Shown here: positions 18,401-60,349 of the stretch, in pieces
How positions within the stretch are numbered: the stretch's first letter is position 1
Layout of the letters: the number at the start of each line of letters is the position of its first letter
From: Haliclystus octoradiatus
Lineage: Eukaryota; Cnidaria; Staurozoa; Stauromedusae; Haliclystidae
DNA length: 64,000 nt
NCBI GenBank assembly: GCA_916610825.1
Contig: OU744446.1
Coordinates: 18,569,131-18,633,130, forward strand
Direction: 5' to 3'
Translations under genes and position numbers: made by a program
Notes under the pieces: generated by a model
The model's input: the letters and a program-made list of their open reading frames with translations, nothing else
Databases searched by the model: none
What the model was told of the DNA's origin: nothing

Positions 18401-18446
18401 ATGATACGTTCTTGCATTATAGCCTGGATTTCCTTATGCATTTGCT
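18401..18446 (+). CDS. Exon 1: signal peptide
   Basis: The exon follows the acceptor CTATTCTAG and starts with ATG. It reads MIRSCIIAWISLCIC, a short hydrophobic secretion signal, and ends in phase 1 at the donor GTAAGT. The codon split with exon 2 gives Ser. The short size is typical of a leader exon. The start is chosen because it is the first ATG and gives a signal peptide joined in phase. Confidence 0.75.

Positions 18447-60349: not shown

Follow-up and report, generated by a model that had tools for sequence, protein, structure and literature searches.

Gene structure at the locus

The window analysed here is the whole stretch of 64,000 nucleotides of contig OU744446.1 from the staurozoan Haliclystus octoradiatus (GenBank assembly GCA_916610825.1, positions 18,569,131 to 18,633,130 of the forward strand), and its plus strand carries a chain of exons encoding lectin domains. 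A preliminary description, made from the sequence, had proposed a 24-exon gene with 23 agreeing junctions and a frame of at least 1550 residues. We rebuilt the chain, setting exon borders from GT/AG sites and open frames and proposing the linkers L2 and L6 by a splice-site scan, and obtained the same model: 24 exons (18401-60349, plus strand), together 4651 nt and 1550 amino acids with no internal stop, in which all 23 junctions are in phase, every donor is GT and every acceptor is AG. An in-frame TAG lies directly upstream of exon 1. The exons are as follows.

18401..18446 (+), exon 1, start codon, signal peptide probable; phase 0 to 1, reading frame, splice site
19027..19201 (+), exon 2, N-terminal cysteine-rich domain, part 1; phase, splice borders
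30820..31094 (+), exon 3, N-terminal cysteine-rich domain, part 2; phase, splice borders
31532..31705 (+), TSP1 repeat 1; Pfam TSP_1
32246..32413 (+), TSP1 repeat 2; Pfam TSP_1
34150..34456 (+), SUEL lectin 1; Pfam PF02140, Glu/Asn/Asp sugar contacts present
34659..34705 (+), linker L1, weak; phase fits, splice score 2.1
35105..35342 (+), SUEL lectin 2, degenerate; Pfam PF02140, 2.4e-12
35750..36187 (+), AJLec-like lectin domain 1; PDB 6a56, E 4.5e-8
39043..39071 (+), linker L2, plausible; likeness to L4
40023..40338 (+), SUEL lectin 3; alignment, Glu/Asn/Asp present
41188..41213 (+), linker L3, plausible; splice score 9.1
41535..41799 (+), F-type lectin 1, first exon; PDB FBP32 and eel lectin, His replaced by Glu
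42070..42266 (+), F-type lectin 1, second exon; PDB FBP32 and eel lectin
42601..43018 (+), AJLec-like lectin domain 2; PDB 6a56, E 9.9e-8
43573..43601 (+), linker L4; splice score 13.4
43807..44122 (+), SUEL lectin 4; alignment, Glu/Asn/Asp present
44275..44330 (+), linker L5, proline-rich; splice score 14.9
51881..52196 (+), SUEL lectin 5; alignment, Glu replaced by Tyr and Asn by Thr
53219..53253 (+), linker L6; paralogous to L7, splice score 10.3
58137..58404 (+), F-type lectin 2, first exon; PDB match, canonical His replaced by Ala
58910..59070 (+), F-type lectin 2, second exon; PDB match
59867..60182 (+), SUEL lectin 6, copy of SUEL5; Pfam PF02140, 7.8e-21
60315..60349 (+), linker L7; splice score 19.1, ends at donor

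For fourteen of the 17 non-linker exons, those between the first TSP1 repeat and SUEL6, coding status is backed by a domain match, by selection or by both, and exons 1-3 (signal peptide and N-terminal domain) are moderately supported, by reading frame and splice sites. The linkers were scored with splice-site matrices retrained on the 17 non-linker exons. The control, the minus strand over the same 43.4 kb, yielded 23 candidates at a score of at least 8, seven at 10 or above and none at 12 or above. L4 (13.4), L5 (14.9) and L7 (19.1) scored above all of these controls, and L6, at 10.3, gains support from its similarity to L7, which extends into the intron flanks. L2 has the same length as L4 and is identical to it at 17 of 29 bases, a level reached by 3 of 3790 intron 29-mers, L2 included, and L3 is the sole candidate scoring at least 8 within its own gap. 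Overall, support is good for 18 of the 24 exons, moderate for exons 1-3 and provisional for L1-L3, and the domain order is independent of the last three. Two points count against the model at its full length: the splice scores of L1 (2.1), L2 (7.6) and L3 (9.1) are not above control, and the 3′ end of the gene is missing from the window. A good donor closes the last exon, L7, and the gene probably extends past 60349 and ends outside the window; an acceptor scan from this last donor to 64000 found no recognisable exon. A plus-strand candidate outside the model, at 34498-34538, obtained a splice score of 12.6. We judged that it should be set aside as a replacement for L1, since it would leave a 41-nt intron, and L1 stays uncertain.

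Domain content and order

Seven pieces of the protein were run against Pfam. TSP_1 was matched in two stretches (1.4e-20), as expected from the TSP1 repeats recognised in the preliminary description, and its WSC-like domain found no backing: the N-terminal cysteine-rich domain gave no WSC match in Pfam at an expectation value (E) of 1 or below and no PDB match at E of 10 or below. The SUEL assignment held, with all three copies that were scanned exceeding the 31.4-bit cut-off of PF02140 (SUEL1 1.5e-21, SUEL2 2.4e-12, SUEL6 7.8e-21); SUEL3-5 were assigned by alignment. Five of the six SUEL copies carry the GDPC, YGR and KYL signatures also seen in SUL-I, CSL3 and latrophilin, and SUEL2 is shortened. 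The F-type assignment held as well: F5_F8_type_C_2 was matched twice by Pfam (2e-17 and 1.2e-14), and in the PDB both domains match FBP32 (3cqo; 9.4e-36 and 3.9e-34) and eel lectin (1k12) over most of their length, and they are therefore F-type lectins.

Read-through past the donors of SUEL3 and SUEL4 (40339-40354 and 44123-44138) leads into an identical short tail with a stop within six codons. This tail could be that of a truncated isoform or merely recently shared intron sequence.

The domain that had been listed as unknown in the preliminary description very likely belongs to the AJLec-type lectins, to judge from its sequence. AJLec comes from the sea anemone Anthopleura japonica and is a galactose lectin that depends on calcium (PMC6070535). 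Copies 1 and 2 match it (PDB 6a56) at E of 4.5e-8 and 9.9e-8, and their profile at 5.4e-7; it is the only PDB entry matched at E of 0.01 or below, the next best being 0.46 or worse. The two copies are 91% identical to each other. All four cysteines that form the intrachain disulfides of AJLec (Cys15-Cys156 and Cys48-Cys61; PMC6070535) are aligned in both. AJLec is a stand-alone homodimer, whereas here the domain sits inside a large protein and has two extra cysteines. Predicted homologues have been named from Stylophora (29) and Nematostella (seven) (PMC6070535), and homologues have been reported only from cnidarians (PMC10377782).

After the two TSP1 repeats the order is thus SUEL-SUEL-AJLec-SUEL-Ftype-AJLec-SUEL-SUEL-Ftype-SUEL. 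Where at least eight lectin domains of two families and an unknown domain had been counted, the SUEL and F-type families stand and the tally so far rises to ten domains of three families: six SUEL, two F-type and two that are very likely AJLec-like.

Predicted sugar-binding sites

The domains were compared with lectins whose sugar contacts are known. SUL-I binds rhamnose through Glu7, Asn71 and Asp76 (PMC10377782). By alignment, all three contacts are present in SUEL1, SUEL3 and SUEL4, and Asp alone is present in SUEL2, SUEL5 and SUEL6; in SUEL5 the equivalent of Glu7 is Tyr and that of Asn71 is Thr. In AJLec the side chains of Glu141, Asp150 and Asn151 hold the sugar-site calcium (PMC6070535), and all three are identical in the AJLec-like domain, within an ungapped stretch (123-161). 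The second calcium site (Asn21/Asp142/Asn145/Glu148) is not kept, the corresponding residues being Ser/Asp/Gln/Thr. Among the aligned AJLec homologues the sugar-site calcium ligands are conserved, and conservation is only partial at the galactose contacts and at the second calcium site (PMC6070535), so that we do not treat the second site as family-defining. Calcium and sugar binding by the AJLec-like domains is predicted as probable, and sites look canonical, where they can be checked, in five of the ten lectin domains (SUEL1, SUEL3, SUEL4 and both AJLec-like domains).

Several observations weigh against a picture of ten active sites, and some of them against the AJLec comparison itself. Three of the six SUEL domains lack two of the three contacts. 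The canonical F-type fucose motif is H-x26-R-x-D-x4-R/K. Both F-type domains keep the R-D-R part, as in FBP32 and eel lectin, but at the exact 26-residue spacing the opening His is replaced by Glu in F-type 1 and by Ala in F-type 2, and these domains are best regarded as members of the fold for which fucose binding is only putative. The match to AJLec consists of two collinear stretches (13-63 and 123-161) with the middle unaligned, and the second stretch is weak by itself (E 2.6-9.6). Arg64, which reads the galactose 4-hydroxyl in AJLec (PMC6070535), cannot be placed, as the alignment ends at 63, and simple extension gives Leu at 64 and Arg at 65. AlphaFold, run on the AJLec-like domain with a two-row alignment, gave a mean predicted local distance difference test score of 37.4, so low that the jelly-roll fold of AJLec-type lectins is no more than putative here. 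In addition, the AJLec authors themselves expected specificity to differ among the homologues (PMC6070535).

Duplication and selection

The repeated modules are under purifying selection. The ratio of nonsynonymous to synonymous substitution rates (dN/dS) was 0.056-0.211 in all eight module pairs compared, with third-position changes in excess: 0.15 for the AJLec-like pair, 0.17 for SUEL3/4, 0.056 for SUEL5/6 (dS 0.22), and, in the five older pairs, where dS is about 1.8 or more and the ratios are rough, which counts against leaning on them, 0.21 for SUEL4/5, 0.20 for SUEL1/3, 0.11 and 0.17 for the F-type exons and 0.21 for the TSP1 pair. SUEL5/6 have the lowest ratio, and their altered site appears to be one that selection maintains.

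At the DNA level, AJLec-like 1 and 2 are 90.9% identical over 416 bp (35763-36178 and 42603-43018), SUEL3 and SUEL4 92.7% over 358 bp (40005-40362 and 43790-44146), and SUEL5 and SUEL6 90.3% over 432 bp, upstream intron included (51782-52213 and 59771-60199); L6 and L7 are 73% identical over 113 bp, flanks included (53195-53306 and 60291-60402). As dS is 0.20-0.32 in the AJLec-like, SUEL3/4 and SUEL5/6 pairs, their duplications seem to be fairly recent and of roughly similar age. The TSP1 exons, SUEL with its linker, SUEL2 with AJLec-like 1 and linker, the F-type exon pairs and AJLec-like 2 with its linker are all units that run from phase 1 to phase 1. The gene therefore seems to have grown by exon shuffling, and also by tandem duplication of exon blocks, fairly recently and on at least two occasions.

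Relation to known proteins

The combination of TSP1 repeats (TSRs) with a galactose-binding lectin has been reported as specific to cnidarians (PMC4820225). The Hydra protein XM_002160899 resembles the protein described here in joining TSP1 to an array of several SUEL-type domains, and differs from it in having one TSR and five galactose-binding lectin domains, against two and six here; its description, by which alone we compared the two, makes no mention of an F-type or AJLec-like domain (PMC4820225). Hydractinia rhamnospondin and Hydra Tsrp2 likewise combine TSP1 with a SUEL-type lectin in a secreted protein (PMC4820225). They are rich in TSRs and have a single lectin domain, rhamnospondin with eight TSRs and one rhamnose-binding domain and Tsrp2 with eleven TSRs (PMC4820225), whereas the protein described here, with two TSRs, six SUEL domains and two further lectin families, falls outside the definition of a rhamnospondin. 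F-lectins and sea anemone lectins were among the lectin classes predicted in a lectome survey of a soft coral (PMC7778903).

It had been suggested that the joined protein be searched for proteins of the same architecture. Our protein database searches reach only proteins of similar length that share exact 5-residue words; no protein of this architecture was matched, and with such low power this absence is no proof of uniqueness. The full protein gave 15 matches, 13 with TSP1 and two with F5/8-type domains, the top one being a SCO-spondin-like protein of Clytia, and PF02140 was listed for none of the 15. AJLec-like 1 with SUEL3 (query residues 1-240 of 418) gave nothing significant among 193 candidates. 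A 282-residue query that starts inside SUEL5 and runs to the end of F-type 2 had 585 candidates, of which two matched: a rhamnose-binding lectin from sardine and an F5/8-type-domain protein. In the accessible portions of the open-licence literature, which included PMC6070535, PMC10377782, PMC7778903, PMC9456362, PMC4820225, PMC6019070, PMC5446238, PMC9589958, PMC6161364 and PMC8878817 and did not extend to the original rhamnospondin papers, we found no multi-domain protein described as containing an AJLec-like domain, and no chain described as carrying both SUEL and F-type domains; the one exception is a list of the domains of cohesive proteins in which galactose-binding lectin and F5/8-type domains appear together (PMC9589958). 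The parts are known, and these low-power searches returned no chain that unites three lectin families and has an AJLec-like domain embedded in it; we view the protein as a variant of the cnidarian kind that combines TSR and SUEL.

Proposed function

On balance, and with moderate confidence, we favour the reading that one gene encodes a secreted modular glycan-binding protein, in which a signal peptide and the cysteine-rich N-terminal domain are followed by the two TSP1 repeats and the ten-lectin array, and which probably continues past the window. The TSP1 and N-terminal part would anchor the protein to matrix, mucus or partner proteins. SUEL1, SUEL3 and SUEL4 and the two calcium-dependent AJLec-like sites would bind terminal sugars of the galactose or rhamnose type, and avidity would arise from many weak sites. 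SUEL2, SUEL5, SUEL6 and the F-type domains, in which canonical contacts are lacking, probably have other sugars or proteins as ligands or serve as spacers. In this way the protein might agglutinate or capture microbes, prey or symbionts at an epithelial surface, and its most likely role would be that of a secreted multivalent agglutinin at an epithelium. The preliminary description had envisaged a multivalent recognition molecule of surface or plasma. A multivalent glycan binder, secreted or at the surface, remains the best reading, with half of the domains lacking canonical contacts; plasma is unsupported, because the domain set points to a cnidarian.

The main rival to a recognition role is a structural or adhesive secretion, such as mucus, cuticle, footprint glue or nematocyst wall, in which the lectin folds would cross-link the protein's own glycans. 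Among the genes of Nematostella cnidocytes are indeed one for a galactose-binding-lectin protein resembling nematogalectins and one for a protein that has both thrombospondin and F5/8 type C domains (PMC6161364). However, no collagen-like or low-complexity stretch was seen by eye in the 1550 residues, VWD was not matched in the seven pieces scanned with Pfam, and the closest architectures are those of TSR and SUEL proteins for which microbe binding has been proposed (PMC4820225), among them the Hydractinia rhamnospondins, whose proposed targets are microbes that enter the gut (PMC4820225). We regard a structural or adhesive role as a minority possibility.

One gene or several

The whole chain is likely a single gene, and we infer a single transcript from the genomic sequence. 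The preliminary description had argued for this from the phase agreement, which is indeed complete and proves less than was claimed. Phase agreement is weak evidence for one gene, because modules that run from phase 1 to phase 1 would agree across two adjacent genes too, and this counts against the single-gene reading. A somewhat better clue came from a scan of the whole window for exons encoding signal peptides (ATG, hydrophobic core, 40-99 nt, phase-1 donor). On the plus strand it returned exon 1 alone, and no second exon of this type lies in the six internal gaps, which helps the single-gene reading somewhat. Also to be set against that reading are two chance matches of the same scan on the minus strand, the choice of its thresholds with exon 1 known, and a donor matrix trained on all 24 exons, exon 1 included.

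Two or three adjacent lectin genes (for example one at 18.4-44.3 kb and another from 51.9 kb onward), joined in appearance by tandem duplication of phase 1-1 modules, would account for the same phases. The 7.5-kb gap at 44330-51881, with its 1.1-kb ATT array, and the stops met within six codons on reading through SUEL3 and SUEL4 would also suit such an arrangement. Yet the scan, within its limits, returned no exon of the signal-peptide type with a phase-1 donor from any of the six internal gaps, and the linker that follows SUEL4 directly, L5, scores strongly as an internal exon (14.9) and is in phase with SUEL5, so we hold separate genes to be unlikely. A decaying gene or an assembly artefact, which transposon-filled introns and three weak linkers might suggest, is very improbable given 1550 codons without a stop or frameshift, dN/dS of 0.06-0.21, and recent copies whose dS of 0.2-0.3 would be too much for two alleles.

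Transposons and repeats in the window

The window also contains a number of mobile and repeated elements. A young BEL/Pao retrotransposon lies on the minus strand at 6011-12314, with long terminal repeats (LTRs) 99.7% identical over 692 bp and one open frame of 1615 codons that matches Pao peptidase, integrase and aspartyl protease. An older BEL/Pao-like element (24124-30378, plus strand; LTRs 91.9% identical) lies within the 11.6-kb intron 2 of the lectin gene, and its reverse-transcriptase and integrase matches are spread over several separate frames. A very long, near-pure microsatellite, an ATT array of 377 copies at 48455-49586 (99% matches), lies in the intron that separates L5 from SUEL5. 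A dispersed repeat resembling a short interspersed nuclear element (SINE) occurs at 23479-23774 and 59134-59427, 90% identical to each other, and also at 15383-15457; it is tRNA-like by eye, and ARAGORN finds no tRNA in it. Neither tRNAs (by ARAGORN) nor RNA families were found. Element remnants lie at 1396-5196 (minus strand; aspartyl protease, reverse transcriptase and RNase H frames), 37638-38096 (minus strand; a reverse-transcriptase piece below the Pfam cut-off) and 55456-55878 (plus strand; a GIY-YIG match just below the cut-off, Penelope-like by eye). We grouped with them a 334-codon frame at 62934-63938 (plus strand) that has no Pfam match.

Implications

A more tentative idea, possible though doubtful, is that one secreted protein reads composite glycan patterns through three unrelated lectin folds, the AJLec-like and canonical SUEL sites giving avidity for galactose and rhamnose, and the F-type and SUEL5/6 sites, altered at contact positions and still maintained by selection, having gained other ligands. 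The analysis gives the formerly unknown domain a name and a likely calcium-dependent sugar site, and it places a sea-anemone lectin type inside a large modular protein, which may be the first report of an AJLec-type domain in a multi-domain setting. The natural pairs of canonical and altered sugar sites under constraint would offer material on how cnidarians, which have no antibodies, recognise microbes, symbionts and prey.
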